A stretch of DNA of 41,438 nucleotides from Zygnema cylindricum (lineage: Eukaryota > Streptophyta > Zygnematophyceae > Zygnematales > Zygnemataceae): positions 64,001-105,438 of the forward strand of contig JBBHKE010001965.1 of assembly GCA_037447655.1 (NCBI GenBank), given 5' to 3'. The position numbers were made by a program, and so were the translations under genes. Below, one piece after another: positions 17,594-41,438 of the stretch (within the stretch, counting starts at the first letter, position 1; every line of letters begins with the position of its first letter). The notes under the pieces are model-generated. The model was not told the DNA's origin and did not search any database. It was given only the letters and a program-made list of their open reading frames with translations.

Positions 17594-20500
17594 ATGGCCT
17601 CTTCATTGCATTCATCGGAAGGAAATGTATCTTTAGTCGATCAAACGAAAGAAATTGCAACTTCTTTCGCAGAATCGGAAAACGTTCAAAAGACGCCACG
17701 TGGAATTTGTTTTAAAGATGATAAAAATGGATTTTCTTGCCAAGTGTCTGTAGTTTCGGATTCCATTTTTCGTGTTTTTTTCCTAAAAGACGACAAGCCA
17801 CCACGACAACCTCACACTTGGACCATTCTAAAACCAGGTTGTGCTGATGTTCCATGGGATGGATTTGATCGAGTTTCTTTGCTAGATTCATTCCCCTTGC
17901 CTTCTTCATCGTCTATTGACATTTTCCCTAGAGACTCTAAATGTACAATTTCAACATCCAATCTTGTAGCTGAAGTATACCTTAACCCTCTAAAAATCCA
18001 ATGGATCTCTAAAAAAAATGGGTCTATTTTTGCATCTGACCGACCTTCTCGACCGTACTTATTCTCCAAAACATCGGATAAGTGTCGACATTACATGGAG
18101 CGCCGTCCTGATGATTTTTTTTTCGGACTCGGCGACAAAACAGGAAATTTGAATTTGCATGGAAGACGATTAAGGACAAATATGACTGATGCTTTAGGAT
18201 ATGACCCTGAGTTTGGAGATCCTCTTTACAAACATTGGCCGTTTCTTCTTGTACGTGATTCATCGACAGGATGTTTTTACGGCATTTTGTACGACAATAT
18301 GGGAGAAGCTTCATTTGACTTAGGGTGTGAACATAGCAATTATTTTGGTCTTTATCGGTCTTATGAGGCTGAATTTGGTGATTTGGATTACTACTTCCTG
18401 ATTGGTCCACGTGTCGAGGACGTGATTCGAAACTTTCTCGTGTTGACAGGTGGCATGGTAGTAGGTCCAAGATGGACATTAGGGTACCATTGCACTGCGA
18501 TGCCATTGGCTGATGCTCCAAATGCTCAAGAACGTATCATGGAATTTATTGCAAAATGTGGAGAATTGGAGGTTCCTTGTAGTGCTTTCCATTTCGGTTC
18601 CGGGTACACAAGGTGAGGACAAAATCAATCTAGATTTTTTTGTTGGCCAAAATATTATCACGTGTCGGGTTTGGTTTGATTTATTTATTTTTTGGCTAAA
18701 AAAAATACCGCGAGTTTTTTCCGGTCCGATTTTCTTTAACTTGGGTAAATTATCATGTGTTTTTTTTCCTTTGGGGGTTGGACATAATGGGTAAAGCATG
18801 AAATGTAGGATGTCTTTTTGTGATTTGTTCTCCGTGAGTCAAAAAGATTTGGCATATGAAGAAGAATGGTTGTTTGTCAATGTGTTGTAATATTGTATGG
18901 TTGTAAAATTTTTGACATTGTCAAGTTGGACGACAAAATTACAAATATACGATTTTTTTACGTAGGAAATGTTTTACTTCTTTTCAGGACTCATCGTATT
19001 CAATTTTGTATGTCGATTGTTTTCTTCTTGTCGTTGTGCAACTTTTCTCAAATTATAGGAGATCATTTTTTGACAAGAGGTTGACAAAAAGTGTTTTTAC
19101 TCACATTTTTTTGGGCAATGTGGTTTACTGTTCACATTTTTCTATAGTAAAGCCTGCTACCTAACCAACTTTTGCCAATTTATATCTGAGCAATATATTT
19201 CAATAGGAGAATATGTAGGTTTGAGGTTTTCTTAAGTGAGTGAAGGGCGGACAAAGCTGTAATTGTGAAATTTTCTGAGTTGCTGACATCTATGGCCAAT
19301 CAGCATATGCTTAAATTTCAGTGACAAGTTATTTGTAAATGGACTTGTAAACATGAGTTTACACCTTTTGTTCTTGAGAAAATGTATTTTGGAGTCGATA
19401 TAATGTAAATTTCTTTCTCCTGATCATCATACTTCTGCATTATAGAGTTGATAATGGACTTATATTCCTTAGCTGTGCCATTATTTTTCCAAAACAGTCT
19501 TCTCTTTCCTCCCCAGACTATACAATCCTATCCTATTTCCTCCTCATCTCTAAAATGCTTTTGACGCGTTTTGTTGCTGAACCTTTTTGACTTTTATCAA
19601 AAATGAGTTTGGCTATTAGTCCTATTTGTATTGCCCTCGGTTCACCTTTGCATTTTTGTTGTTCGTTTTTTGCAGTCATTGATCTAATCGACATTTTTCA
19701 ACTGCCTTTCTATGCAGTATCGGTTCCAAAATATATATTTTCAACTGTCATATTTTGCAGTATTGGTTCTAAACGATATGTTTTCAGCTCCTTATTTTGC
19801 GGTATCTGTTCTAAATGATACCCTTTCAACTGACCTTTTCAACTGCCCTTTTCTTGCAGTATTGGTTTTACACGCTATATTTCTACTGCCTTTTTTTCCA
19901 GTATTGGTCCTAAGTGATATGTTTCCAAGTGCCTTTTGTCTAGTATTCATTCCAAACAAAATGTTTTCTACTGCCTTATTTTTGCAGTATCGGTTCTAAA
20001 CGATATGTTTTCAACTGGAACCGTCAAAAGTTTCCTGACCCTCTCCACCTAATGGAACAGTTTCGAAAGGCTGGTATGAGGGTAGTCGCGAATTTGAAAC
20101 CCTGTTTGTTGGATGATCACCCACAATTTCAAGAAGTCGAGAAATCTGGAGCGTTCATTAAACAGGCCTCGACAGGATTACCGTCGATCAGTCAGTTTTG
20201 GGACGGAGAGGGAGCCCATTTGGATTTTACAAACAAAGTTGCCATTAAATGGTGGCAAGAAGGCCTGAAAACCTCCATTTTGGAATTTGGAATAAGCTCG
20301 TCTTGGAACGGTACTTTTGTCTTTTTACTCTTCCTCCCTTTTCAAAAGAAGAAAAAAGAATGAAAATGCTTGGAATTTGGTATAAGCTTGTCGTCAAATG
20401 GTACATTTGTTTTTCTACTCTTCCCGAAAAAGAAAAAGAAAGAAAATGATTGGAATTTGGAATAAGCTCGTCATGGGATGGTACATTTATCTTCCTACTC

Positions 20501-22850
20501 TTCCCACCTCTCTTTCCCTTTCCAAAAAGGAAAAGAAAAGAAAAGAAAAGAAAATGTTTGCAGTTTAAAATGTGTTGTGTATTAGCAGTCAATAGTCTCA
20601 GAAAGTCTTTTGTTAAGAAAAATACAGAATATCATCTTTCTATTTATCTATTTTTTGATGTTTGTTTTTTGTTCCATAAAATTTCATCTGAATAAGTGTG
20701 AACCAAGAAGGTTCCCGAAAAATATTTATTCAATGCATGGAATTTGAAGATATATCTCTATTGCTGTCTTTATTTTTTGTGTGCTTACCTCTCTCCCTCT
20801 CCCTCTCCCTCTCCTCGGCCCTGCAACATTTGGTACTGGAGTACGATGTTGCTATGGGCATAATTGTGCTACAACTTAATGATAATTGGTCCACAATTTA
20901 TGTGAGAGGAAGAGGGAGAGGGATTGAGGGTTTGTATTTAACCATCTAATGGCTGGTCTTGTTCACGATTACAATTTTGACTTCCGCAACTCCGCTTGAT
21001 TCTCAAAGCTTCACCATTTTAAAGTTTTCAAATTAGAAGAATTTCATTTGGAATTTCAAATTTAAAATATTATCAAACATGTTTTGTCTACGGCTAAGGG
21101 TTACTATGATGTCTGATTTATGTGTGTATTCTCAATTCAATACTTACAATCTACTAGATAATAGTTTATTTAAGAGTTAACATGTATATTCACGTACTAG
21201 AAGAATTTCATCACGTTTCTTTAAGCAAGTTTTTATATAATAATGCCTTCATTCTAACAAACCAGCATTTTCGACAAAAAAAATGAATCTAGTAGTTTAC
21301 ATGTATGCTGAAACACTAAAAGAGCAATTATCATGATCTTTAGGCTAGGTTTTATACTCTTCATATTAACGCTTTTACTTGACTAAACCCACATTTTTGA
21401 CATAAATTTTATCTCCGTTTGTGCCTCATATGACAGTTATGTTTCTATAAGGAAGGTTTTATCTCATAATGATGCTTTCACTCTACTAAACCAACATTAT
21501 CGACGAAATTTTATCTTCATTTGTGCCTCAGATAACAACGAATATGAGCTGTGGGACGAAGACGCTGTTTGTACGGGATTTAATAATAACACAATCCCCA
21601 TCGAACTCGCTAAACCTCTCCACTGTCTCTTCATGACTCGAGCCTCTTTCGAGGAACAGAAAAGGTTTTCTCCAGAGGAAAGGGTCTACACTATTTCTCG
21701 AGCTGGTTGTATCGGTATTCAAAGATACGCTCAAACCTGGTCAGGAGATAATACCACCAGTTGGAAAACTCTCAGATACAACCTGAGGACAAGCCTCCAG
21801 TTTGGACTCTCGGGTATTTTCAACATAGGACACGACGTCGGAGGATTTGCCGGACCTTCTCCCGGACCAGAACTTTTAGTAAGGTGGGTCCAAAGTGGGG
21901 TTTTACACCCGCGGTTTATTATGAACTCGTGGAAAACCGACGGAAAAGTCACGACTCCATGGTTACATCCTCAAATGTTGCCACTTGTCCGATGGGCAAT
22001 TCGTCTAAGATATCGTTTAATTCCTTATTTATATTCACTATATCGTGAGGCTGGGAAATATCACAAACCAATCCTTCGGCCCACGTTTTACGATTTTCCC
22101 GAAGATTCTAAATGTCTAGAAGAATGTGACGATCTCATGGTTGGACCGAGTTTATTAGCGGCCCCAGTAGTACACCCTGGAGTAAGACAAAGAGAGGTTT
22201 ATCTTCCAAAGGGTCCAAAAGGGTGGTATGATTTTTACACGGAGGAGTTTTTTCCGTCAGGTGAAACGGTCACAGTTGCGGCTCCGTTGGATCGTATACC
22301 CCTTTTTGTGCCAGCTGGCAGTTGTCTTTTCTTAACCGCGGAGTCGGACGATTTTAGTCGACTACATGACGAACCGTCCCGTGTGGTCCGGATTTTCCCC
22401 GAACCTCCAGATGTTGCCGCTTCAGATGGGACCAAAAAGGACGACAAATGGCCAGCTGGCACATCTGATGGGACACAAGAGGACATTGAGTTGCAAGCTG
22501 CCGTGTTAGGTGAGACAAAAAAGGACTTTGAGGTGCCAGCTGGCAAGTATGTTTGGGAACCGCGACCTTTACGTTTGTGGGAAGACGACGGAATCGGTAC
22601 AAGTGAATCGAATGAATCTTTTCGTATTTTTAGAATGGAAATCTCGTCGACGAATGAAGCAATTCAGTTGAGTCTTGTTTCTGAAGAGGGGAGTTACAAC
22701 ATTCCGTACAAAAGTATCACCGTTTCTCTCCCTGCCTCGGAAACACGGACGGTTACCATGAAAGTTGTAGAAAAGGAGAATTCCGATAAAGACACGGGTT
22801 CTTCGGGAGTTTCTCTTGTGAGAGGGAGATTTAGGTTCCATGGGATCTGA
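17594..22850 (+). CDS. GH31 family glycoside hydrolase (alpha-glucosidase-like), 3 exons
   Basis: Exons are 17594-18612, 19988-20310 and 21532-22850; all junctions are GT-AG, phases fit, and they join to 886 codons. The start ATG sits in gccATGgcc. GH31 enzymes are retaining exo-acting hydrolases of alpha-linked sugars. Visible marks: an N-terminal beta-sandwich with GLGDKTG at 178-184, the barrel entry WTLGYHC at 294-300, the nucleophile in WNDNNEYE (Asp448), the acid/base in WSGDN (Asp520), and GHDVGGF at 547-553. Usual family members have DMNE where this has DNNE. A C-terminal beta region carries three 14-residue repeats (744-785). No signal peptide or membrane segment is evident, so a cytosolic or plastid site is possible. 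The exact substrate is not predictable by eye. Both introns carry tandem copies of their splice junctions. Confidence 0.92.
18613..19987 (+). other. GH31 intron 1
   Basis: This 1375-nt phase-2 intron has donor AAG|GTGAGG and acceptor TTTTTGCAG|TATCGG. It is T-rich and has no ORF of note. Its last 320 nt are a tandem array of acceptor-like units, listed separately. Confidence 0.9.
19640..20017 (+). repeat. Eight tandem copies of the intron 1 acceptor plus exon 2 start
   Basis: The unit is a T-rich tract, CAG, then TATCGGTTCTAAACGATATG and TTTTCAACTGCC. AG-like ends fall at 19675, 19717, 19760, 19802 (CGG in place of CAG), 19859, 19901, 19943 and 19987, with spacings of 42, 43, 42, 57, 42, 42 and 44. 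The 30 nt after the copy at 19760 match the true exon start at 27 of 30 positions. Only 19987 leads into open exon 2. Confidence 0.9.
20281..20500 (+). repeat. Three tandem copies of the exon 2 end and donor site
   Basis: The last 30 nt of exon 2 (20281-20310) recur at 20371-20400 (24 of 30 identical) and 20451-20480 (27 of 30). Each is followed by GTAC and a T-rich tract ending CTACTCTTCC or TTACTCTTCC. The true donor is at 20311 and decoys are at 20401 and 20481. Using a decoy would include the in-frame TGA at 20361-20363. Confidence 0.9.
20311..21531 (+). other. GH31 intron 2
   Basis: This 1221-nt phase-1 intron has donor AACG|GTACTT and acceptor GTGCCTCAG|ATAACA. It splits the codon of the catalytic nucleophile Asp448 as G|AT. 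Both ends carry tandem copies of the neighbouring junction. A short (CTCTCC) run lies at 20792-20816. Confidence 0.9.
21228..21550 (+). repeat. Three tandem copies of the intron 2 acceptor region
   Basis: Units of about 105-120 bp start near 21228, 21348 and 21457. Each contains a GTTTTTATA-like or GGTTTTAT-like start, a word such as CTACTAAACCAACATTATCG, then AAATTTTATC. The second copy preserves TTTGTGCCTCATATGACAG against the true TTTGTGCCTCAGATAACAA. The first copy is the most diverged. Confidence 0.75.
22419..22544 (+). repeat. Three 42-nt in-frame repeats in the GH31 C-terminus
   Basis: Units 22419-22460, 22461-22502 and 22503-22544 each encode 14 residues: ASDGTKKDDKWPAG, TSDGTQEDIELQAA and VLGETKKDFEVPAG. 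They form an acidic/lysine-rich insert between two beta-strands of the distal C-terminal domain. The length is conserved exactly while the residues have diverged. Confidence 0.9.
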
Positions 22851-24600
22851 GTCTTTCAAAAAAAACGAAATTGCTTTTTTTTTGTAATTTTTTTTTTTTT
22901 CTTAATCACAAGAAATGCCTTCAGGAGAGAGAGACCAATTGAGCTCCATTTAGTGAAATTTTGCAACCACTGTTTTATGCGCTCTAAGTCCGTGCATGTA
23001 ATTTATTGTCGTTCATTATTGTTTTTATTATTTTTTAGTCTTTTTTTGGGTGGTCTATTTTTATGTTGAACAACATGTAGTAGTTGTTACAGAGTATTTT
23101 TAGTGCGATTTCCTCACATAGAGGGTCTTCTCTGCCGGGCGCAAAGAAAGAGAAAAAAAATGCAGAAAAAAGATTGGAAGTAGCAAAAAAAAAAAACAAA
23201 CAAAATGGATGGTGTAATTTTATTTTTTAAAAATGTTTGCTTTGTCCATAGACAATTTTCTGAAGTGACCGTTGGTGATTGGTATAGTAAGTTGACTGCG
23301 GGAAATCCCAATTAAGTCCTTGGAGCTCTCGGGGATTCCAATTTTGAATGTGTTTTAAATGTTATTGTTATTCACGACATGAATCTGCCTAATCATGGAA
23401 ATAGAGACGTGTTTGGGTCGGTGATGATTTGCAAGATACTATTTAGTGTTTAGTGTTTAATTTGAGGGTTTGATTATGATCATTATCGTCTTCATCATTG
23501 TCATGAATTTCTTTCCCAATTTTGGGATGTGAATCGATGTTAGCGTTAAGAAATAATTACTGTAAAAAGACAATTACTGTTATTAACTCTAATTTGGGTT
23601 TAAGGCCATTTGCTAAAAAAAACTTTCTCTAATTTATTCACTAACGCTAATTTGGGTACACTTTTCCCATTGTGTAGCCGCGATTGAAATTTTCACACTA
23701 TAAAATATATGAATCTTTATCTTTGACAAATCATACACAGTCACGTGATTGTGGCATGTGATTGCGTCGGATTGTCAGAACGCAACCAACTCTTTCCGCT
23801 AAAAAGGGTTGCATTTTAGAGTTTTACTTTAATCTAGTTTATTAACCCTAATTTATGTTTTTTTTAACAAATAATGAACGTTGTTCACTGTTTTATTAGA
23901 GTAAATTTACATTAATAAAATTAACTCTAACATGGTTACGGTTTGGGTGGAAAAAAGTATAAAATGACTACCTATGAGGGTTAATGTTAACTCTAATTAA
24001 GTCCAAAATGAACAAACAACCTAATGAACTTACAAAAAACGTCATATAATTGGCTCTCATTCTTGTTCCACGTGGCCAACTCTTCATCCACGGTTGTAAA
24101 AACGACGTAGATTACGTACGACAAAAAAATAATGTACTTTCACAAGTCTCAACTACATTCTTTTGATAACTTGTTGACCTAATTGTTCGTGAGTGTATCA
24201 TGGGCGCCAGTTTTTTCGTTTTCCCCTTTTTTTTCAAGGGATTCTCACTTGTGTAGTCACATTTTCAAAATTTGAGTGCGCGTAATCAACTACATAAGCG
24301 TGGAGTAAAGTTAGGGAGAAAAACTGAATCCCAAAGACGGCGAAAAAACGCTTTTCAACATTATATACAACAAATTTGTTTTTCTCCATTTCTCTTTCTA
24401 TTTTTGTTAGCTTCTATCTCCATCCCATTCTATCCCTCTCCCAAACAATATTTTTCCCTTTTTTCTTTTCATTTTGTTTCTTTCCCTCCCCTTTTTCTAT
24501 CTCTCTCAACCTCCACATCAGTTTTTGTTGCACACTCCCTCTTTACTTTTTTCCCTTTCTATATCCCTTTCTCCCTTTCTCAATTTCTAACACCTTTTTT
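22851..24600. other. Intergenic region downstream of GH31
   Basis: It starts with T-homopolymer runs (22875-22901) where a 3' UTR is expected. AT-rich sequence follows, with scattered TTAACTCTAAT-type words at about 23585, 23630, 23840, 23925 and 23980. No gene was found. Confidence 0.5.
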
Positions 24601-26711
24601 GTTAAATTCTCTCTCCCTCTCCCTTTCTCCAACCCTCTTCTTTTACATCTCCCTCTCCCCCTCCCCCTCCCCCTCCCTCTCCCTCTCCCTCTCCCTATCC
24701 TGCTCCCTTTTCCTCCCCCTCTCCCTCTCCCTATCCCGCTCCCTTTTCCTCCCCCTCTCCCTCTCCCTCTCCCTCTCCCTTCCCCTCTCCCTCTCCCTCT
24801 CCCTTTAAATTTTCCTCCTCAACTTCTCCCTCTCCCTTTCCCTCTCCCTCTCAATCTGCCTCTCCCCATCCATCTCCCTCTCCCTCTCCATCTCCCTCTC
24901 CCTCTCAGTGTGCCTCTCTCCCGTCTCCATCTCCCTCTCCCTCTCAGTGTGCCTCTCTCCCGTCTCCATCTCCCTCTCCATCTCCCGTCTCCATCTCCCT
25001 CTCCACCTCCCACTCCCTCCTCCATCTCCCTCTCCCTCTCCCTCTCCCTCCCTCTCCCTCCCTCTCCTTATTCTTTCCCTCTCCCTCTCAATCTGCCTTT
25101 CCCCCTCTTCCCTCTCCCTCTCTCCCCTCTCCCTCTCAATCTGCTTTTTCCCCTCCTATCTCTCCCTCTCCTCTCAATCTGCCTCTCCCTCTCCTCGCCC
25201 TCTCCCTTTTCCTCTCCCTCTCCTCGCCCTCTCCCTTTTCCTCTCCCTCTCCTCTCCCACTCCCTTTTCCTCTCCCTCTCCCTTTTTCCTTTCCCTTTAA
25301 ATCTTCCTCTCTTTCTCCCTCTCCATCTCTCTTTCCCTCTCCCTCTCAATCTGCCTCTCTCTCCTCTTCTTCTCCTTTCCCCCCCTTTTCCCTCCCCCTT
25401 CTCCTTTCCCTCTCCCTCTCCCTCCCCCTCTCCCTCTCCCTTTCCCTCCCCCTCTCCCTCTCCCTCTCCCTCTCTCTCTCCCCCTCCCTCTCCCCGTCCC
25501 CCTCCCTCTTTCTCTCTCCCTCTCAATCTGCCTCTCTCCATCCTTCTTCTCCCTCTCCCCCTCCCTCTCCCTCGCCCTCTCAGTCTGCCTCTCTCTCCCC
25601 TCTCCCTTTCCCTATCTCCCTCTCCCTCTCCCTCTCAATCTGCCCTTCTCTCTCTTTCTACCTCTCCCTTTCCATACCCCTCTCCCACTCCCTCTTCCTT
25701 TCCATGTCCCTCTCAATCTGCCTTCCCCCTCTCCCTCCACCTATCCCTCTTCCTCTCCCTATTCCTTTCCCTCTCCCTCTCAATCTGCCTCTCTCTCTCT
25801 CCCCTCTCCCTCTCCCACTCCCTCTCCCTCTTCCTCTCAATCCTCCTCTATATTACCACTCTCTCCAGGTTTGCCTCTCCCTCTCCACTTCCATCTCACT
25901 CTCCCTCTCCCTCTCCCGCTCCCTCTCCCTTTCCCTCTCCTCCTCAATCTGCCTCTCCCCATCCATCTCCCTCTTCCTCTCTCTCCCCCCCTCCCTCCCC
26001 CTCTCCCTCTCTCTCCCTCTCCCTCTTCCTCTCAATCTTCCACTCCCATTTTCTCTCTCTCCCTGGTTTCCTCTCCCACTCCACCTCCATCTCCCTCTCC
26101 CTCTGAGAGGGAAAAGGAAAGGTGGAGGGAGAGGGAAAGGTGGAGGGAGAGGCAGATTTAGAGGGAGAGGAAAAGGGAGAGGGAGAGGTAGAGGAGAGGG
26201 AGTGGGAGAGGGAGAGGGGAGAGAGAGGCAGATTGAGAGGGAGAGGGAGAGGGAAAAGGAGAGGTAGGGGCCGAGGGAGAGGGAGAGGCAACTTCCGAAG
26301 GAATGGGAGTGGGAGCGCCTGATTGTGAGGGACAAGGAGAGTTAGGGGCAGATTGAAAGGGAGGGAAAGATGGAAAGAAAGAGGGAGAGGGAGAAGGAGA
26401 AGGAGAGGGAGATGGAAAGGGAGAGGGAGATGGAAAGGGAGAGAGAGGGAGCGGGAGAGGGAGGGTGGGAGAGGAGAGGGAGAAGATGAGGGAGAGGAGA
26501 GGGAGAGGTAGAGGGAGAGGGGAAGGGAGAAGGAGAAGGATAGGCAAATTGATAGGGAAAGGGAGAAGGAGAGGGAAAGGGAGAGGGAGAGGCAAACTGA
26601 GATGGAGAGGGAAAAGGAGAGGGAGAGGGATAGGAGAGGGAGAGGAGATGGAAAGGGATAAGGAGAGGATAGGGAAAGGGAGAGGGATGATGAGAGGGAG
26701 AGAGGAAAGAA
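24601..26711. repeat. Polypyrimidine/polypurine inverted tract
   Basis: From about 24605 to 26104 the plus strand is almost pure C and T (CTCCCT hexamers). At CCTCTGAGAGG (26099-26109) it flips to almost pure A and G until about 26711. The word CTCAATCTGCC recurs at many points in the left arm, and its complement GGCAGATTGAG recurs in the right arm (26152, 26229, 26346; weaker at 26552 and 26592). The two parts are thus reverse-complementary arms of one repeat family. Confidence 0.95.
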
Positions 26712-28920: not shown

Positions 28921-29256
28921 TTAATTTCCCTTCTCATCTCTCTTCCCCTCCATTTTCTCCGTCACCATATCCTTCTCCTTTTCAGTCTCCTCCTTCTCTA
29001 TCTCCATTTCGACCTGTCGCCTGCGCCGGTCCCTCATCTCGTCCCTCATTTTCGACGCGCTTCGATCCGATCCTTCGTGATCTTTGCTTTCGCTTCATTT
29101 CAACCGCGATTTCATTTTCGCCAGCGGCTCTCGATCGGTCTCGCGCAATGGAGCGAACCTCCTCCTCCTCCCCCTCCTCATTCTCCTTTTGTCTGACGAT
29201 CGTCTCCTTCTTTTGAGTCGCCTCCTCCTTTTCCTTCTCCTTCTCGAGCCTTTTCA
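28921..29256 (-). pseudogene. K/E-rich frames beyond the DCD gene stop
   Basis: Directly after the stop at 29257, another frame opens at 29260 (Met-Met-Lys-Arg-Leu) and runs to 28982 with Lys/Glu/Arg-rich content. A third frame gives MEIEKEETEKEKDMVTEKM to a stop near 28921. These could be a C-terminal extension displaced by frameshifts, alternative exons, or simply 3' UTR. The purine-rich strand makes every frame look K/E/R-rich, so composition cannot decide. Confidence 0.3.
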
Positions 29257-32200
29257 TCATCTCCGCAAGCCCGGAGTTTCCGATTCGCCGCCTTCGATCT
29301 CCTTTTCCTTCTCTTTCTCCGTCTCCACGTCGGTCTCTTTTTCATTCTCCTTCTCCTTCTCCATCTTCTCAGTTTCCATCTTCGTCTCCTTCACATATCC
29401 CAATGTCTCATTCTTGTCGTCTCTCTGTGCTTCACCTACTAAAGAGGGTATGGTTCCTTCCTCCTCTAACGTATTTCCAGGGTCCTGAAAGTTCATAAAA
29501 GAACAGAGAGACAACTCATTGATATCAATACAGACATTCAATACTGGGGAGAGGGAGAGCGAGAGCGAGGGAGGGAGGGGAGAGGGGAGAAGCGGAGGGA
29601 GAGGGAGGGCAGAGGGAAGGGAGAGAGAGAGGGAGAGGGCGAGGCAGAGCCAGTAACAAAAGCGATAGAAAAAAGAAAAAGAAAACCGGCTGAACCGATA
29701 TGAACCGGCATGTTCATATCCACAACTTTTGCGTTTTACTTTTTCTTTCTTTATTTCGTTATTTTTGTTTCCACGCCTGCGCAGATACTACAGTTTTCAC
29801 ATTTTCCATTTTTCATTTTGGGTCTTCATTATTATTTTTCTTTTTGTTTCCTTACCTTAATTTGCGTAAATTCCCCTAAGAGACCTGATGTCACGCCAGC
29901 CGCAGCAGCCAAAGCTTCCATAAAATCATCTCCCTCTGTCTCCCTCTCCAAAGTTTCTCCTCTCTTCATATCTGCATGACAGTAAAGCAATAGATCTCAA
30001 GAAATTATTCAAAATCAAGAAATTCACTAAGGAAACACTAAAAAAAATCTTGATAACCTACGTTTTATTTACCTGTTCCATGTAATTTTTTCAAGATAAC
30101 GACTCTTTTTATATCAACACCATCATTGAGAGATACTGAAAAGATGAGCCTTTCTTCATATACATTGACAAATCAGCCAGGAAATCAAGAAATTCACCAA
30201 ATGAATAATGGAGAAAATCACTCTTTCTTGACATGTACTGAGAAAATCTGTTTACTTGAGTCCGAAAATTGAGAAATCCGCCAAATCATTTACTCTTTCT
30301 TGACATATACTGGGAAAATCCGCTTATTTCAGGTCAACAATCAAGAAACCACTAAAATAAAATTGGAAAAATGACTCTTTCATCATACATACTGATAAAA
30401 CCTGTTCATATCAACCCAAGATCAATACATCCACTAAAGAAACATTGAAAAATGACTCTTTCTTGATACGGACTGACAAATTCCGTCTATCTCAGCCCCA
30501 GTCTAGGAATATTTGATAAAGAAATACTGAAGAAATCCTTGATGACCTCAGTTTTCTTTTAGCTGTTCTATATGAAATTTTTAAAAATCTTTTAAGTCGA
30601 ACGTCCAATTCTGGAACTGATAGCCTCAGTTTTTATTCAAGTGTTCTATCTTGCTCAATAGATATTTCTTACTCTCGACCAATACAAACTTGCTGACATA
30701 TTTGTAAAATTATTCAAAAAAAGTTGGTTATTTTACTGTAGGTGACATAAGACTTGTATTTACTCTAAATGTCAAGTGAATGTGAACTAATATGGACAGA
30801 ACAGTACACTGCCCACCGAGTGTGTGTTTTTTTAAAACCCAAAATCATAAAATGGTGTTAATAACACTATGTGGTTGAGTGGTCCATAACGCCACATGAC
30901 GAAAACATAATTTAGTGTAGTCAATACTAAATCTGCTTTCTGGCTGATAATCCAAAAACTCTAAAAGCGATGTAAGGTGCATTTTCACAAGTTAAAATTA
31001 TAATGGTCCATACCGTTTAGGACAACAATATGTATGAGAAATATCTGTGGCCCACACTACATGAGTTGTAGAGGCATAAGATTGGGCCATAAGAACGAGC
31101 AGGATAGAAGACGTTTTTTTTTTATATTCACTTAAATGGTACAAAAGAATCAACTGTTTAAGAACAAAAGATGTTGAAAACTAGTGTGGTCCATATAAAT
31201 TATGATCATTGCCAACACTTTTTTTCGCAATCCTAACATACTTGAAAGGAGAGTCATAGGAATACAATACTATCAGAATTTACTCTCATTTGTAAGAAAA
31301 ATGTGAATGCAAGTAATACAATTTTGCAAGTAACTCATAAACTTCACAATTACTCAAAAAGTGAGTGTAAACTCTTCAACGTTCAATACCCGTATCAGGC
31401 GGTATTAAATTACGTGAAGTTTTACCAAATGACCACCGGTTTCATAAGAATAAAACAAACCGGCAAGTTTTCCAAAACAACCCAAAACTTGAATCATATT
31501 TTTCCCAAAAAAAAGAAACAGACATGGATAAAATTAAAACCAGATGGTACCTGGATTAGGAGTGCTCGTGGATGCCTCTCCATTATTATCAACCTTTCCC
31601 TTTTCGTCTACAGAAATACATTTTGAAATATCTTGTTTCCCTTTAATTATCACTCTTCCTTTCTTTTTTGCTGATTCAGATGACTCTCCTGAAGGACCCT
31701 CTCCTGATAAACGTTTCACTCCACTTACGATCCCCTTTATTGCCACACTTCCGTTTTCTTTCTCTTTCTCTTTATCTTTCTCAGATAATAAAACAGACAG
31801 AGGTTTGGGCCATGGCTTCTTTTTTGGAGGTCCATCTTCCTCCTGTTTGTAAATTGTCACACCTAAAACAGTCATAAAAAAAAAGATAACTAAGAATATG
31901 TCATGGAATCCCCACAAAAAAAAACGATTAGACAGCTTCTTCTCTCTTTCTTCGAGGTTGTGAGATGTAGGTGAACAAATTTATATCCTGAAATAGAGTC
32001 AGTTTAACTGTTCTTGCGATCCCCATTTTCGCGTTAAAAAGAACATCACAAGAGAACAATATTAGAGAGAGCTTCTTCCTTTCTTCAAGGTCGTGAGCAG
32101 TACACAAATGAAGTTCTTATTTTTAAAACTATGAATACACTCAACATAACTTTTCTCGCAGCTAAAGGAAAAACAATATTAAAAGCGTTGCGAGTACCTT

Positions 32201-35200
32201 TTAACCTTGTTGTTGAAGCATTACTGTTTTTCACAGCTGTGGTTTTTGGTTGTCTTTTGTTATTTTGACCACCTTCAGATTTTTGGCCACCTTCAGATTT
32301 TTTACCACCATTATTTTGACCACCTTCAGATTTCTGACCACCTTCGGCTCGTTCCACAGGAGGCGCAAAATTTTCATTTCTACCAAGGTCGGCATTTTCA
32401 TTTCTTTCTCTTTTTTTATTTCTCTCAGGCTTTGCTCCAGATTTGAAATCCTGTCGACTACTGTTACCACTACCTCCCCTCGTCTGCTTGCCACTTTTTA
32501 CGGAATCTTTTTCTCGCTTGTGTTGTAAAATTCGAGAGTTTTCGGGCCCCGGAAGTAATGCAGGTTTTCTAAAAAGGTTTACAAGTTGCTCCACCTGCTA
32601 GAGTAAAACGCCATTAGTGTGAAGTTTGTTTTAGTGTTCATGAATTAAAAAAAGTTTAAGTTATGGATGACGTGGACAATTATTAACCATTTATAGAATT
32701 AGAGTTATGAACTATCGGTACTAGTATTGTACGGTCAGAAAAAAAAACGGCACCAAACTCGTGTTATTAACCTAATAGCTATTCACAGTATACTTTAATA
32801 CGCCTGTCCATTCAGGTTATATCACATAATAAAAAACCATGTTGACGCTACTTTAAGTTTCGAGGACAACAGGGGAAAAACGGGCCCAAATCAGTGATAT
32901 TCAACCTTAATAGCTATTCCTTTTGTACTATGATACACCATTTATAAAAGTTGTAGTCCGAGTACAAGATAGAATGCCAATAAAAAAAATAGCAAGGTGT
33001 GCCTAATATACTTTTGTACCCAATGCAATTTCTGCGATAAAAAAGATTCGTTGAAGCACAAATATGTCCTCTTTCCGGAATTTACGCAGTCCCTTTGTGT
33101 GAGGATAGCCAAGCACTTTACCTGCTCAGAATTTAAGTCGTATCTGAACTTCTTTTGCTTGTAATAGTTTTCGTGTATTGCATCTTTGAACTCCAACTCT
33201 TCCAATTCTCGACACTGATCGATGACACGAATACGTACCTGCATAAGTGTATCACATTCAACATAAAATGTCACCACATAAAATAAAATGTCACTATATA
33301 CACTGCTATTAATGTTAGACACTTTTCGGGCACTCAAACGTCTCTAACTTTATTCTCAACTGCCATTTTTTTATCTTCTAGGGGAGTAAGCCAAAGGTAA
33401 CTGTCCCACCATTCGATTGTGACGTCAAAATTGAAAATCGGAAAATTCTGCGATGAGAAAAAGTACTTTAACTGCCTAAAAAATGTCTAGCACTGACAGC
33501 GATCGGGAGCGTAATTGTTCATTACCAATAGTGTGGTCCACACTATTTACAGACCACCAACAGTAAATAGTTTTAAAAAAGAAAGAGCCAAATCTGTTCT
33601 GTACAAAACATGACCTATTGAGCAACCCGCCAAACCTTGAATGTCTACACACTATATAGAACACAATAATCACAAAACTATGAACATGATAAAAACCTGG
33701 TCAAAACATTGTAAGTAACAAGCCAGTCTCAGCGTGAACATAAAAATTTCCATACTAAAACGTTTCTGGAAACAAGACAAGCTCAAAGTTTTACATAAAT
33801 TTGGACACACTAATACTTGTGCACAGGACATGAAAAGAATATCAAAATCTTCAAATTGGAGTTTTCCACACTAATACTTACGTAAAAAGATCATCAGAAG
33901 AAGATAAAAAAATTATCAAAATCTTGCCACAGAGGGTGGGTAAACTTCAAGAACAAGGTTCAATTTCGACCGATACAAAGTATTTGTTTATCTATCAACA
34001 AATGTTGGAGGAAAACCACAAAACTGAGAAAACAAAAACAAAATGCATTTCTTTCCTTCATTTCAAAACTCTTTTGCTTGACAACATATTTATTTCATTA
34101 CGAGCAAAGTACATTTACGACTTTATCTTTTTAATTTTCATCCACCCCTTCTCCTAGCTCCCTCTTTCGCGCTCTCGCTGACACACATTTCTCTACCATC
34201 GTCGACGGCAAACTCTATACAAAAGGCTAATTCTATAAAAACGGTGAATTCCATCAATAGACAGGATGGGCAAATTCCACATCGTCATACCTGTGCCGGA
34301 AATGACCCAAATCGAAGGAATGCCTCACTGTCGATATTCATCGCCCCATGAGAAGCTGCTTCAAAAATTCCATACATCTTTCTTTCGTCAAAATTGAAAA
34401 GAAAAAGTTTCGATCCAGGAATTAACCTTTCCACCAATTGCCGAGTGGAGGGTGGCCCAGCAAAAAGTTGCCTTTCAAAACACTCTGATTTTGTCTTGTT
34501 GCTACAACTAAAAATAAAGCCTGTGAGAGGAACAATTGTCGGGGTTGGTAAGAGAGGAGGAAGCTTATCCTTCTCCCTTTCCTTAGGTGTATACACTATT
34601 TGAGGACGAGGTACAAACTCCGGTACAGTCATCGGAGTAAGGTGAAAACGCTGACGTGGCGGAGAATGTGGTCCGTGATATGATTCCAGGCGTCTTTGAC
34701 CAACGAGATCGTGGGAATGGTGCATTTCTTCAATTTTGAGTTTACCCTCTTTTACCTTTTCTGAGGAAATTTTAGGGTTTTGACTGTTCAGAGATTCTTT
34801 TGACCATCGAGTCGAGGAGATAGGTCGATCGACAAAAGAAGGGGAAGTGGTAAACTTAGGAGGAGGAGATGAAAGACGAGGAGGAGGAGGAGGAAATTGT
34901 CTGTAGGATATGTGAGCGTGAGAGTGAGAGGAGTGGTGGTAAGAAGGTGGTGGTGATGGGGCTCTTTGTAGAATATCTCTGTCGTCATATGCTTCACCAA
35001 TCCTCCCCCTTGTCTGTCTATCGGCTTCTGACGAAGGACGTATAGACTTACTCTCTAAATAAGACTCATTCTCTAGATAAGATTTGCTGTCCAAGTAAGA
35101 CTTTCTGTCTTGATACAACTTGCTGTCTTGATAAGACTTGTCGTCTAGATAAGTACTGTCTAAATATGATTTGCTGTCTTGATAAGATTTGCTCTCTAAA

Positions 35201-36072
35201 TATGTATTTCTGCCTTGATAAGATTTAATGTCTAATGTTTTATCGTCTTCATAAGATTTGATGTCGTGATACAACTTGGTGTCTGGATATGTTTTCCTGT
35301 CTTGATGAGATTTGATATCTTGATAAGCTTTGGTACCTTGATTTTGAATTTGTTCTGGACCTCTGGAAAATGCAGCAGAGTATTTTGTCTCTTCTGAGTA
35401 TTTTGTCCCATCTGGAAGATGGAGAGGTGGTGGAATTAGGGTTGGAGCACTAGTGAAATCCCTAGAATCTGAAACCCTAGAATCTGAACCAGAAATGTAT
35501 GGGTGTACGGACGTACGGCTGGAGAGAAAGGTACCGCTAGGGTTTCCGGATGAGTACAAATTAGGAACTGCAGGTTCGGAAGGTACATTTCTTTGTCCTG
35601 TAGTGATCCCTGAAGACCTTGGTCTGTACAGATCAGAAGAAGTAAGCCCCTGAGTATTGTACGGATGAGATATATATTTCTGAGAGTGGTAAGGATCTGC
35701 AGTCTGTACAGAGCCGTACGGAACAGATGAAGACAAATGCTGAGACTTGTAAGGATCGGAAACAGGATAGGAGGGAGGGTAAGAATTACTGGTTCTGGAC
35801 GAAATGGAGGGATCTAAATAGGGTTTGATTACATCAGAATAGGGATAATTTGCATGTAATCTACTCACATTGTCACGTCGTTCAAAATTGGATGTAAGAT
35901 TTGAATTTTTTTGAGAGTAAACTTCACCGAAGGGAGAAGGGAGAGGGAGAGAGACAGGGAGAGGAGGAGGAGGAGAAGGTACAATTGTATTGACAGTATG
36001 CCACGTGTCTTCCGCGCGTGTGTACGGATTCCATGAGACTCTGCCAGCGGAAGGATATGTTTCACCATACAT
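29257..36072 (-). CDS. DCD (Development and Cell Death) domain protein, 6 exons
   Basis: Exons in order: 36072-34291, 33238-33122, 32594-32198, 31862-31551, 29971-29856 and 29484-29257. All junctions are GT-AG and phases agree, giving 983 codons plus stop. An in-frame TAA lies four codons before the ATG. The first 517 residues are Pro/Ser/Tyr-rich and disordered, with a Tyr-x-Asp-x-Lys repeat at about 247-344. The DCD domain (518 to about 640) begins GFIFSCSNKTKSECFERQLF, has LFLFNFDERKMYGIFEAAS and continues across the intron with FPAQ|VRIRV, DAIHENYY and KFRYDLN. The tail is Gly-Gln-Lys, then Lys/Glu-rich. DCD proteins occur in plants and several respond to stress or cell-death cues; the domain's biochemical role is not settled. 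Exons 5 and 6 rest on splice sites and phase only. Confidence 0.85.
29487..29855 (-). other. DCD intron 5 with purine/pyrimidine tract
   Basis: The donor is AAG|GTAAGG and the acceptor ACTTTCAG|GACC. On the transcribed strand a 110-nt CTCTCC-type tract (29541-29655) ends in CCCCAG about 60 nt before the acceptor. It resembles the long tract at 24601-26711 and may act as an extra polypyrimidine tract. Confidence 0.7.
29940..30500 (-). repeat. Tandem copies of the DCD exon 5 acceptor region
   Basis: On the minus strand the true junction reads GTGAATTTCTTGATTTT, then TGTCATGCAG|ATATGAAGAGAGG. Copies with the order TTTCTTGATTT, TCAGTATATG-like and TCAAGAAAGAGT recur, with AG ends at 30239-30238, 30311-30310, 30393-30392 and 30474-30473. 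A copy near 30167 keeps TGTATATGAAGAAAGG but has lost the AG. Spacing is 72-82 nt. Confidence 0.75.
29972..31550 (-). other. DCD intron 4
   Basis: This 1579-nt phase-1 intron has donor CCAG|GTACCA and acceptor TCATGCAG|ATATGAAG. Its exon 5-proximal part contains the acceptor-like array listed separately. The rest is AT-rich with no ORF of note. Confidence 0.7.
31863..32197 (-). repeat. DCD intron 3, built of tandem acceptor-spanning copies
   Basis: The true acceptor reads TATGACTGTTTTAG|GTGTGACAATTT. Upstream copies read CTGACTCTATTTCAG|GATATAAATTT (AG at 31989-31988) and GTATTCATAG|TTTTAAAAATA (AG at 32130-32129). The stretch after each copy also matches: CTCACAACCTCGAAGAAAG near 31950-31970 against CTCACGACCTTGAAGAAAG near 32075-32098. 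The unit is about 125-140 bp and fills nearly the whole 335-nt intron. Confidence 0.7.
32595..33121 (-). other. DCD intron 2 with a duplicated repeat block
   Basis: The donor is GAGCAG|GTAAAG and the acceptor CTCTAGCAG|GTGGAG. Two related blocks (32735-32800 and 32870-32940) share the plus-strand pattern CGGCACCAAA or CGGGCCCAAA, then GTTATTAACC/GATATTCAACC, then TAATAGCTATTC. A third relative lies at 28015-28095. Confidence 0.65.
33239..34290 (-). other. DCD intron 1
   Basis: This 1052-nt phase-0 intron interrupts the DCD domain after FPAQ. The donor is GCACAG|GTATGA and the acceptor CTTATGCAG|GTACGT. Just inside the donor, GAATTTGCC-like words recur four times (34204-34281). Just before the acceptor, GTGACATTTTAT occurs twice. 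Confidence 0.85.
35040..35335 (-). repeat. Short tandem repeat encoding Tyr-x-Asp-x-Lys units
   Basis: About 21-nt and related shorter units (TAAGATTTGCTGTCTTGA type on the plus strand) encode peptides such as SYQDSKL, YQDRKSY and SYLESKS. They form residues about 247-344 of the DCD protein, a hydrophilic Tyr/Asp/Lys-rich tract. Confidence 0.85.
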
Positions 36073-36600
36073 TTCGAATCGTTATCCTTTTTTCTGTAAT
36101 GTTGTTTTCAAGAAACTCACGAAAATATAGTACGGCATGGTACGAGAAAGTACAAAATTCTGTATTAAACCTCACTTTTCGTCTGATGTAACCATACCCT
36201 AAGTGTACAGCCGTACGGTCAGGAGGCATTTTTGATTAGGGTTTGGAAGACCAAAAGAAAGAATGATAGCATTAGTTCAAAGATTGATGAAGCCACGTCG
36301 GATTGGTTGCAAGAGTTTCCAGGTTTTCTGTTCCGCCTACCGTACGCATTTGAAAGTACATAATCATACATAAATCGTACATATAAAAGTACTGTAGTGA
36401 GAGGCTATGTGAACACTCCATACTGCTGGATGGACACCCCTTCGAAAAAATCTGGCGACGTGTCTTCGGATATTTCGACTACCTTTTACATGGGATAAAG
36501 TGGATAACCTATAAATATTGTACTTTTAAATTTTTTAGGACACCTACCCCACCCAAACCCCATCAGATATGCCTCCGTACGGATGGCCACTAAGGGGGTG
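36073..36600 (-). promoter_or_regulatory. Upstream region of the DCD gene
   Basis: This sequence probably holds the 5' UTR and promoter. GTACGG-type words are common (36133, 36215, 36575 and others). No TATA box can be assigned with confidence and no ORF is supported. Confidence 0.3.
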
Positions 36601-36800
36601 TCCCCATGTAATCGATTAATGTTGTGTATCGGGTAAAGATTTAAATCCTACATTCGATATACGTAATATCGACCGGTCAGAGGCCTCGATATATCGCACT
36701 GGAAAACAAATTATATCGCGATATATTTGGTAGAAGGTGGGTGGCTGTAAAGATTTGGTACGTTAAATCGTACGGCAAATTGTATCGCAAGGTTTTGGTT
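36601..36800. repeat. TATCG/CGATA-rich block, relative of 3640-3830
   Basis: The block opens with TGTTGTGTATCGGGTAAAGATTT, close in pattern to the opening near 3645-3665. TATCG, CGATA and ATATCGCGATATAT-type palindromes are frequent. It probably belongs to the same dispersed repeat family. Confidence 0.5.
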
Positions 36801-37359
36801 TACTGTTTAAGGTGACTTCCCTATTGGCTCGAGTACATGTGCCACCCACTATAGTACCCTTTTTGGCAACAACAAGCCTTGTTCTCGTTTGAAAGCCTAC
36901 GGTTGGTATTTGTCCTATTCTTCTCGGGGAAAACATGTAATGTCTTGTGGCTTGATCAATGTGTTTACAACTACAAGGGGTTTTCCACGATTATTTTTCC
37001 TCACATCAGTTTGGTATCGTGACGTGGGAAAGAAGAGCTTCAACATGGCCCCCGTCCCATCAACCAGCTTTTCCCTATTGTTCGCGCTTTTTACCCTACA
37101 TCTAGCTATCTCATTTATTCCCTAGGTGGCCCATTAGGAGATGTTACCACTTTGGACTCATTTACTAGTACACTTTAAAGTGACCCTTAGAGAGCGGCTT
37201 TGTTTGCTCTCTCCCACTAACAAGCCTTATGAGCATCCGCTATCGCTTTTCTAAGTATTTTCCCCTTTGGTCGATGATGACACACGTATCATCGGTTCTC
37301 CGAACCAAGTTGTTCCAGCCTTTTACCATTTTTCTAAGCCATTCTCTCGGAGCCCCTAC

Positions 37360-38040
37360 ATGCGTCGCACCATGACCTACTAACTTACCATTGAATTTCC
37401 CTCTCCCTACGTAATTTTGTGTTTGTACACCTCAAGAGGGTCTGACGGTTTTAGGTTCCCCACTTAGCGTCCCTAATGTTGTTCACCAGTTTCTCAAGGA
37501 CGCCCTATCGGATAACCTTTCTCATTGTGAGGATTTTCCGGAACTTCCAAATTCCCAAGTGGCTTTCGCCATCTTAACTCGTTGTTTTGCGTAACGATCC
37601 TTTTACTTGGCTCATAGTACGTCTCAGTTTTTCTTTTCTTTCCTCACTTTCAAATTTTTGTAATCGCCTCTTTCGGATTTTGCATCAACTTGTCGGGCAT
37701 GGTATATTTTGATGATCGGACTCCTCGCTCGTCGCCAATCTTTTACCATTGAGGAAAGGTCATTAGCATTTCAACAATTTGTATTGTCTACTCTTTCGCT
37801 TTTACCAACCGGGCCCAAGATGTAGTTCCTCAATTATCCTCCCTCACCATAAAGAATCACTCTTGGGTGGAACAACATATATCTGATAAAGTAGCCGCCG
37901 TCGACTTCAAGAACCTCCTTGAGGCGTTGCCTAAGGTTGATGCGCAAGCTTTACTTTGCTCATGTTCGGGACCTGGTGTTGGGGATTTCCTCGTTGCTAC
38001 TCTAATTTTTGCCTCGCTCCGCTTATCTTCTAAAAAAAAA
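37360..38040 (+). pseudogene. Probable non-LTR retrotransposon RT C-terminal fragment
   Basis: Plus-strand reading from about 37480 gives VHQFLKDALSDNLSHCEDFP and then ELPNSQVAFAILTRCFA, followed by fragments such as ILHQLVGHGIF in another frame. A Lys-Gln/Ser-Gln-Val-Ala-Phe-x-Leu-Leu block followed by an Arg-Tyr/Phe-x-Leu-Ala-Arg region resembles the downstream part of LINE-type RT proteins. There are many stops and shifts. The assignment is by recalled pattern and is uncertain. Confidence 0.35.
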
Positions 38041-38694
38041 ATTCTTCACTCCGCTTAAATCTCGCCATGCAAATAGGAAATTGTTACTTATGTACACGTC
38101 GATAATGGTTGTAATGGCTGTGGTGTCTATGTTGTCGCACCTTATTTTTTGAAACTGCTTATAACGTCGCAAGTCTTTGCATGGCAGTGTAAATTTACAA
38201 CCTTTTAGCCATGTGTTCTTCGTGGTTGAGAAGATGCATTTGCCTCTGCATCTCTTGCCCGGTCGCCGTGAAATGATATTGAATTCTGAAGTCCCATGCA
38301 AAAAAGAACTGTATTGGATGCAAAGAAAAATCGTGTACTTTTTGTCGTCGTGTGCAATCGTCTGAAACGTTTGAAATCCTTTGAAACGTGCGAAGTTGTT
38401 TTCCTATTTGTGGAGCGGTAAAACTGGAGTTTAGAACACATCTCAGATGTGTTTTAATGGAACGTTTGAAGATGACGTGGCATGATGTGGCTGTGGGTCG
38501 AAAGACACAAAACGAGAACATTTAGTACATTATGAGTTTGGATATGACACAAATTGTATTTTCAATTTCTTCGTACCATTGTAATTTAATCAATACGACG
38601 CTAAGTTTTTGAGGAGAACAACAAAGTAAAAACCTTACTTTGGAACATGGGGACACGCCCTAAGGCTTTTCCAAATGAGTCTGATTTTTTTTGT
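38041..38694. other. Spacer, no gene recognised
   Basis: Several overlapping minus frames (38195-38521 and others) have no domain. Nothing else stands out. Confidence 0.3.
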
Positions 38695-39010
38695 TAAGTA
38701 CGTACTTTTCCGTTCATTAGATCTTGCATTTTGCTGCTTGTTGTCCTAGTGACCGTCGTATAATACTGTAGTTGATATGTTAACGCGTCAAAAATAATCC
38801 TTAACACCAAATAGTCGGTTTGGTTCAGCAGGAAACATTGGCACGATGCCACGTGGCCGACCATGTAAAAAAATTGTACTTCCCACTTGTTGGCGGTTTG
38901 TGTTAGCGGCCATCGGTACGAACGCAAATTTTTTGACGAGGTTGGTTGATAACCCTTGAAACCCAATTGTTGTGCTGAAAGTGTTCATTTTTGTACCACT
39001 TCTAACCACC
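38695..39010. repeat. Dispersed repeat, copy B
   Basis: It shares in order AGTCGGTTTGGTTC, CGATGCCACGTGGCCGACC, GTTAGCGGCC, TTTGACGAGGTTGG and AAAGTGTTCATTTTTGTACC with 17025-17285. Its left edge (GTACTTTTCCGTTCATTAG, 38702-38720) matches 16950-16970 only in inverted orientation. Confidence 0.5.
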
Positions 39011-40281
39011 AAGCCTCTTGAGCTTTCCACTTAGCAATTTCTGAAATGAGTCATATTTACCGTACAGAACAAGTACTTCGCGTCTTTGTTTGACTGTTCC
39101 GACTTGTATTCAGTATTGCATGACATTTTGCAGTTGTTACGAATGTTACTACAAATACGTCTGGCCGATGTATCGGAGCAGAGGAGATGAAAGTTTATAA
39201 ACTAATTGTTCGGTTGTGAAATAATCGGTGGTACTAAATAATTGACCTGTAACTATTTAGCACAGCTCCAAATACGTTACGTAACCAAGTGACGGTATAA
39301 GAGTCACATCATTAGGCACTCAGCACATCATCATTTCACACATTCGAGTCACACCTAGTATGCAGCTATCGGAAACATATGGTGGTCCCTGGTGAATGTC
39401 TATTAGAATAGTACAATCCTTGTTATATTTGAAAAGATATGATGGAGAAGAAAATAGGAGAGTCCTGAACAACGATGGAACATCAATAATCAGGCTTCCG
39501 CAATGATTACGTGGCAAACTTACTAACGCAAATACACACATGGACAAACTAAATAGTTACTGGTAATGTTATTATGCAGGCATGCACGGTCCCCCCTTCT
39601 GCAAAAAATAAACAAAAATATAATATTTTATACATCATTCATAATACATAATATCTGGCAGGAGTCACCAACCAAATAGAAATCAGCATACATTCCTTTT
39701 CAAACATGGGCATAGTGAAAAAAGCAACAAAACAAACTCAAAAATATTTCCAATTTCCAGAATGCCCCTTCAAATGATACATGAGATATTTTTCAGGGTT
39801 CAGAATTGAGGCAAGGCAATAAAACAAACACACAACACACTTGCGGATAAAAAACAAAAGACACAAAAGACTTGAAGACTGAATTGGGTGCAAGCACATG
39901 CCGAAGAAACGCAACAATACACCGTATATCGCTATTAGTATAAATGTGTTTTTCGCCATTTAAAACATTTTTTCTCCGTGCACACTTGTCAGATTTTTGA
40001 TTGGAGAGTTCCAATCGGAAGGTACGAATCGTTCTTTCTATTGCAACAAGTCGAACTTAGAATCGATAAGTGTGCACAGAGAAAAGTTGACTCACGCGGC
40101 GAAAAAAACATTAACGCGAATAGCAATACACAGAGCAGGTTTACTTTCCCACGGTGAATTACTGAAACTTCTCCAAAACCTCATCAAATTTATAATACAA
40201 CGAATATACATTCTTGTCCCCACTATATCGGAAGACAAACGGCTTTACCAACAAACTTCAACTGATTTCATCGTCACTTAT
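39011..40281. other. Spacer and probable 3' UTR side of PEX7
   Basis: AT-rich with no supported gene. The part next to 40282 is expected to include the PEX7 3' UTR. The plus-strand frame at 39997-40350 overlaps the real exon and is a shadow. Confidence 0.4.
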
Positions 40282-40768
40282 TCACGAGGCTCTTGGATCC
40301 GTTCCATGTTGCCAAACAAAAACCGTTTCGTCCCAAGCACAACTCGCTAACAAACCGTCGACAAGACTACTCATATCCAATCCTACCGCGAATTCCGTAT
40401 GATGGTCATATCTCGCTAAAAGTGCATCTTCTACTGCTCGAAAATCCCACATACAAACAGTCATATCATACGAACACGACCCGATAATTCCTTCGTTGTG
40501 AGGCGAAAATTTCACCCTCCTCACAGCATATCCATGACCTTCCAAAGCCGCAATTTCCCTTTGTGGTTGTCTCACGTCCCAAACACGAATAATCTTATCA
40601 ACGGAACCCGATACGAGAAGACAATCGTTGTATTTGTTCCAGTCACAGGAAAGAACTTCACTTTGTCCGGCCGGAATAATTAAAGAAGCTCGAGGTTCTC
40701 GAACGTCCCAAACTCGCAATGTGTGATCACCGGAAGCCGAAGCAAATACATCCGCATGGGCCGGATTC
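40282..40768 (-). CDS. PEX7: PEX7, peroxisomal PTS2 receptor, last exon (161 codons)
   Basis: The exon starts after acceptor CATTTCAG at 40769-40770 and ends at a stop at 40282. Its first base completes the Trp codon of the conserved Trp-Asn-Pro. It carries the C-terminal WD40 blades: SASGDHTLRVWDVREP, LSCDWNKYNDCLLVSGSVDK, VWDVRQP, GHGYAVRRVKFSPHNEG, SCSYDMTVCMWDF and YDHHTEFAVGLDMS, ending WDETVFVWQHGTDPRAS. These are hallmark PEX7 segments, and the end Asp-Pro-Arg-Ala-Ser is the plant PEX7 terminus. PEX7 binds cargo with an N-terminal PTS2 signal in the cytosol and brings it to the peroxisome with PEX5. The N-terminal half should lie beyond the right edge. Confidence 0.93.
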
Positions 40769-41438
40769 CTGAAATGAATTAACAAAAAAGAATGATAGTA
40801 AAAGAGGATAAGAGAATAGGAAGGAGAAAAGGAAAACGATCAGAAAAATTGGAGTGGGCTGGATTCCTGAAACCAATCAACAAAAAAAGAGAGTGGAAGA
40901 AAACAAAAAGATAGGAAGATAGGAAGATGGGAAGAAGATGGGAAAATAGACAGAAAAATTGGCATGGGCCGTATTCCTGAAACAAATTAACAAAAAAGAT
41001 AGTAATGAAGATAAGCTAGGAAGATAGAAAGATAGAAAGATAGGAAGATAGGAAGGTAAGGAGATAAGAAGTTAGAGAGATAGGAAAATTGAGAGATAGG
41101 ACGATAGGGTAGTGGGAAGATAGGGAGATAGGAAAAACGGAAGGGTAGGAAGCTAGGGAGATAGGAAAAACGGAAGGTAGGAAGATAGGGAATAGGAAGA
41201 CAGGAAGATAGGAAAATAGGAGGAAAGGAAGATAGGAAGATAGGGACATAGGAAGAAAGGAAGATGAACGGGAATATAGAAAGAAGATAGGAAAACAGTC
41301 TGAAAACTTGGCATTCAGTCAGAAAAATGACTAATATTCAGGTTTGAAATTTAAGGAGATTTTGTGGACAAGATATAAATAAGAACAAAAGCTAATATAA
41401 ATAGTTAAATGAATTCACTGACATACAGATAAAACGGC
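40769..41438 (-). other. PEX7 intron (partial), with tandem acceptor copies and GATAGGAA array
   Basis: Besides the true acceptor at 40769-40770, copies of the junction lie at 40867-40868 (TTTCAG|GAATCCAGCCCA) and 40977-40978 (TTTCAG|GAATACGGCCCATGCC). Each is followed on the transcribed strand by an AATTTTTCTG word, and a partial relative occurs near 41300-41330. Between 41010 and 41290 is a (GATAGGAA)-type array, read as CTTCCTAT pyrimidine units on the gene strand. The donor is outside the window. Confidence 0.85.
41010..41290. repeat. GATAGGAA-type minisatellite
   Basis: Imperfect 8-bp units (AGATAGGA, AGATAGAA, GATAGGGA) run for about 280 bp. On the PEX7 strand this is a pyrimidine-rich intron segment. 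Confidence 0.85.

Follow-up and report, generated by a model that had tools for sequence, protein, structure and literature searches.

Genes at the locus

The introns described here lie in a window of 41,438 nucleotides, the whole stretch of Zygnema cylindricum DNA that was analysed. A GH31 glucosidase-like gene runs on the plus strand through three exons (17594-18612, 19988-20310 and 21532-22850), which join into an 886-aa open frame. Exon 1, whose frame stays open across the join, matches Pfam PF13802 (E 2e-28), and exon 3 matches PF01055 (E 6.5e-44) and PF21365 (E 8.1e-25); in exon 2, the first 30 nt correspond to the ladder of acceptor copies, and the last 31 nt to the array of donor copies. 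A tblastn search of plasmids with exon 1 returned 87 records (20 of them listed), the best place in each having less than 60% identity. The DCD gene resides on the minus strand, where the exons 36072-34291, 33238-33122, 32594-32198, 31862-31551 and 29971-29856 join into an open frame of 908 aa; a further exon, starting from 29484, comes after this five-exon join. The product carries a Dev_Cell_Death domain (Pfam, E 6.5e-25), which hints at a plant. Within exon 1 of the gene, at 35044-35342, coding 18-bp repeats specify KSYQDS-like peptide repeats. The third gene is represented by its last exon (40285-40768, minus strand), which matches the Pfam WD40 profile (E 5.8e-23). Among PDB entries the exon matches the PTS2 receptor 3w15 (E 5.7e-28), but many other WD40 proteins score better, and the name PEX7 is therefore putative.

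No tRNA or Rfam match was found in the window. A pattern search of viral contigs gave no match in one run; in another, seven stretches matched and none of the seven was confirmed.

Splice junctions present in multiple copies

Thirteen junctions of seven introns were each compared with 300 dinucleotide shuffles (minimum p 0.003; 26 tests in total); the set takes in neither end of DCD intron 5, nor the PEX7-like donor, which falls outside the window. A query made of intron and exon bases reached p=0.003 at 4/13 junctions, namely the acceptor of GH31 intron 1, the donor and the acceptor of GH31 intron 2, and the PEX7-like acceptor. Values between 0.01 and 0.05, unsafe after 26 tests, were obtained for the GH31 intron 1 donor (0.010), the DCD intron 4 acceptor (0.043) and the DCD intron 1 acceptor (0.050). 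The query made of exon bases only was clear at three of the 13 junctions: GH31 intron 1 acceptor (p=0.003), GH31 intron 2 donor (p=0.003) and PEX7-like acceptor (p=0.007). Among the rest, the same query gave p=0.050 for the DCD intron 4 acceptor and p=0.40 for the GH31 intron 2 acceptor. Self-comparison of the seven introns with their flanks agrees with the shuffle test. Tandem copies of three junctions in two genes are present, each including both intron and exon bases (30 exon nt at the GH31 intron 1 acceptor, 31 at the GH31 intron 2 donor, 12-15 at the PEX7-like acceptor); a fourth junction is merely abutted by an array.

The first-pass annotation had described multiplied junctions in three unrelated genes. 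The GH31 and PEX7-like genes stand, with three junctions between them; the DCD gene, for which at least two had been claimed, is not confirmed, as none of its eight tested junctions gave a clear copy and both arrays counted there lie inside introns. Two of the three junctions listed for GH31 hold, the intron 1 acceptor and the intron 2 donor, the array at the intron 2 acceptor being almost intron-only, with about 6 exon nt. The single junction listed for the PEX7-like gene is borne out by the exon-only result. Repeat units do include exon bases at the three junctions, and the arrays are, as stated, ladders of AG or GT decoys.

Arrays of the GH31 gene

The acceptor of intron 1 is preceded, at 19666-19987, by a ladder of seven decoys (TRF; BLAST self match, E 7.5e-22; unit rows), making eight copies with the real site. 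Each unit, of about 42 bp, joins a largely pyrimidine intron stretch of no more than 15 nt, which ends in AG in six of the seven decoys, to about 30 nt of exon 2. Repeat offsets in the intron are 85, 184 and 269. Further acceptor-like matches located before 19660 were discarded as chance level, since 163 of 500 shuffles reach their score.

Decoys differ by 17-38% from the real copy, and by 24-47% from each other. Their distances to the real copy read, from far to near,.38,.20,.17,.21,.28,.23 and.32. The process had been called serial. A single age fits the seven decoys (chi2 7.0, 6 df, p=0.32), though seven units of about 42 nt afford low power, and only one of the seven is more diverged than the decoy nearest to the exon; the order expected of serial duplication, with the youngest copy nearest the exon, is not seen in these short units, again at low power. 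With the same reservation as to power, the ladder is better explained by one amplification and subsequent non-coding decay than by units added serially at the exon. Differences from the real exon are spread evenly over codon positions (15/68, 13/66 and 17/70); intron parts are more diverged (30/93) than exon parts (45/204, Fisher p=0.06), as constraint on the exon would predict. Splicing at any of the seven decoy acceptor positions leads to a stop at residue 342-376, not 887. Coding use of the ladder was rejected on the basis of these stops and of the even codon-position differences.

Intron 2 carries decoy donors at its 5' end (20311-20549; TRF, self match, unit rows), arranged in units of 80-90 bp, with copies at 20371-20448 and 20450-20549. 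Both are clear decoys and both keep the GT; splicing from either of them, behind exon 2, yields a stop at residue 465, not 887. An additional donor-like copy at 20738-20798 is marginal, its score being reached in 20 of 500 block shuffles, and was left uncounted. On the acceptor side of the same intron an array of units of about 107 bp spans 21216-21537, ending about 6 nt into exon 3. This junction was considered as a third exon-bearing case and, given the exon-only p, was counted as abutting only.

Intron 2 also hosts, at 20788-20929, two 26-nt arms, one of CTCTCC type and one of GAGAGG type, which are 88% complementary and flank 90 nt. The same motif makes up a 2.3-kb tract at 24381-26709, in which the CTCTCC type switches to the GAGAGG type at about 26105; the two halves are predicted to be able to pair.

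The ladders might be functional, providing for regulated splicing that gives frame-broken transcripts. AG is retained in six of the seven decoy acceptors (P 0.04 if change went at the intron rate), GT in both decoy donors, and all nine decoy choices tested in GH31 (seven acceptor positions, two donors) lead to an early stop. At the exon rate, however, retention of AG has a P of 0.17, and one decoy reads GG. Moreover, copies were recognised partly via TTTTGCAG, which favours those bearing AG. A regulatory role is, all considered, very unlikely.

Arrays of the PEX7-like and DCD genes

In the PEX7-like intron an acceptor-side array with units of about 98-120 bp occupies 40769-41314 on the minus strand (TRF, self match), mixed with a AAGATAGG-type simple repeat. 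It comprises two decoys with 12-15 exon nt, plus older decayed sequence. Simple repeats, A/G-rich or C/T-rich, were detected by TRF inside both this array and the GH31 donor array, and sequences of these types are prone to slippage. The richness of the window in simple repeats could suggest that the arrays are artefacts of assembly, due to collapsed or stuttering repeats, but the divergence of the GH31 ladder decoys from the real copy is too high for one misassembled locus, and this origin is barely credible.

Repeats of the DCD gene are found away from its junctions. In intron 4 an array of five units of about 81 bp extends from 30501 to 30128 on the minus strand (self match and unit profile; feature limits 30128-30537). 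It is internal to the intron, ending about 156 bp before the acceptor, and the 68-position profile of the unit gives no match at the intron 4 junction. One copy at 30222-30140 matches the exon at 17 of 22 bases and is a marginal candidate. Intron 3 hosts, at 31930-32097, a repeat pair offset by about 133 bp (minus strand, self match), again inside the intron. DCD junction arrays were rejected on the basis of the shuffle test and of the failure of the unit profile to reach the junction. Unit lengths do differ between arrays, as had been noted; the 73-82 and 125-140 bp classes listed among junction repeats are, however, most likely intron-only repeats.

Retrotransposon sequence is present in the window, and the arrays could be fragments of a dispersed mobile or satellite element. 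Yet, with low-complexity filtering and E up to 1e-3, all matches of the six intronic arrays in the window lie no further off than 700 bp, and unit lengths vary from one array to another. The first-pass annotation had likewise seen no duplication of a transposon; a dispersed element finds no support within the window and is a highly improbable source.

Towards the left of the window, where retrotransposon sequence lies, AGCAGAGCAGCTGCTATAC-like units form two arrays of opposite orientation, at 7328-7452 and 8699-8912. Arrays of GCAGCTTC type are found at 77-155 and 6027-6129, the latter within a long minus-strand frame which, judged by eye, is putatively copia polyprotein-like.

Placement of the arrays

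Eleven tandem arrays were identified in the window, including two wholly in introns, one in a coding exon and four in non-genic DNA. With the threshold unchanged, shuffled sequence yields 1.7 per window (three replicates); the repeats themselves exceed chance. Whether arrays prefer junctions was assessed on the six intronic arrays, defined by an offset of 25-300 and E up to 1e-4, which excludes the one weak internal match of DCD intron 5 (E=0.001). Whole-array placement used footprints of 322 for the GH31 intron 2 acceptor side, 410 for DCD intron 4 and 560 for the PEX7-like gene, which are wider than the original clusters. Factors of 1, 1.5 and 2 for the detection of junction arrays were assumed.

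Three of the six intronic arrays straddle a junction by at least 10 nt, against 0.59-1.53 expected (P 0.011-0.16 according to the null model, for a window selected post hoc). Random placement of units gives 0.86 of six (P=0.04), and P rises to 0.09-0.16 if junction arrays are detectable 1.5-2 times longer; random placement of whole arrays gives P 0.01-0.16, set by the protrusion allowed into exons. Lowering the limit to 5 exon nt, which takes in the abutting GH31 array, brings the count to four of six (0.97-1.65 expected, P 0.007-0.049). In GH31 alone, P is 0.02-0.06 for at least two of three arrays straddling, and 0.0004-0.003 for three of three with the abutting array. The probability of at least four arrays straddling by 10 nt is 0.0006-0.03, whereas just three fit that definition. 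Removal of three low-complexity arrays gives 6/7 with P 0.0004, a value on which no reliance is placed. All these P values understate chance because the window was picked for looking striking. Enrichment of arrays at junctions is only suggestive, and the claim that the arrays imply a shared process at junctions goes beyond what three of six can carry.

Introns carry six arrays in 7.1 kb, whereas non-genic DNA, which is partly retrotransposon, carries four in 28.2 kb; the density is higher in introns (P=0.007). This counts against uniform duplication, because a uniform process does not predict such density. For five of the six intronic arrays the nearest acceptor is at most 160 nt away (P 0.017-0.024, with the cut-off set after seeing the positions). 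Together with the straddling of junctions by half of the arrays, these figures could be explained by hypothesizing that duplication is biased towards junctions or acceptors. Breakage or slippage would be promoted by pyrimidine tracts, or by structures formed co-transcriptionally close to the 3' splice site, and introns would grow by copying their own ends. The arrays number just six, however, and their window was selected once it had been read; DCD intron 3 is 335 nt long, which makes proximity to its acceptor almost inevitable; one or two weak arrays may be due to chance, given the yield of shuffled windows; and under the most permissive null the straddling has P up to 0.16. A bias of this kind is unlikely. 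The broader proposal that introns of this genome grow preferentially beside acceptors, the pyrimidine tract and the exon edge forming a duplication hotspot where each unit is a self-sufficient splice site able to absorb DNA harmlessly, is a shade more doubtful.

Origin of the arrays

The junction arrays are probably ordinary small tandem duplications tolerated by splicing. Tandem duplications can carry splice sites. Local duplications with units of about 42-135 bp, in two to eight copies, may have arisen via replication slippage or microhomology-mediated repair, and some of the duplicated stretches would have spanned an exon-intron boundary by chance. Such an event would be tolerated because the copy joined to the exon body retains a complete splice site; the protein would be unchanged, and the surplus copies would turn into intron. 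At donors, the exon-side copy would be transcribed first. At acceptors, every unit would bring its own pyrimidine run and AG, so that the last copy may act alone. The choice of the exon-side copy as the spliced site would follow from the reading frame alone. Surplus copies would decay without constraint, plausibly as neutral sequence, and junction arrays may stay recognisable longer than intronic ones, because the exon copy is held by selection.

Breakpoint microhomology is readable by eye at two of the three sites. TTG or TTTG is common to the exon edge and the array end at the GH31 donor. In the PEX7-like gene, ATGC is shared by the exon edge (CCCATGCGG) and the far edge in the intron (AATGCCAAG); one unit join reads CCATGCCAA, and the other is changed at that place (CCCACTCCAA). 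No clear microhomology is found at GH31 intron 1. The chance of such identity at fixed breakpoints is 0.016 for at least 4 nt and 0.051 for at least 3 nt.

The origin by tolerated duplication is favoured by the microhomology at two of three sites, the even distribution of differences over codon positions, the compatibility of the ladder with a single age, the higher divergence of intron over exon parts, the stops introduced by decoys, and the occurrence of other arrays wholly inside introns, in a coding exon and in non-genic DNA. Against it are the excess of straddling arrays, the gap in homology at GH31 intron 1, the retention of AG measured at the intron rate, and the higher density of intronic arrays. 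One window cannot demonstrate the existence of a special junction-copying process, and the locus is to be taken as an illustrative case only. Should junctions prove to be hotspots, or safe harbours, for duplication, they would offer a simple route to longer introns and shifted splice sites with an unchanged protein. The seven decoys and the one real acceptor of the GH31 ladder amount to a natural experiment on the choice of splice sites among similar sequences.

Comparison with known systems

Tandem duplication of exon sequence containing AGGT can lead to intron gain or to alternative splice sites. There, as here, the duplicated DNA holds splice signals, and exon bases end up inside an intron. 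In the present case, by contrast, existing introns seem to have been lengthened, and no new intron is shown. Like the arrays, the minisatellites and other variable tandem repeats of introns consist of partly decayed units, tens of bases long, that run head to tail at several offsets; the arrays differ because in each of them the exon boundary makes up one of the units. NAGNAG and other tandem acceptors similarly place several possible AG sites before one exon, but in the GH31 ladder the sites are spaced by about 42 bp, and the choice of a decoy would add stops.
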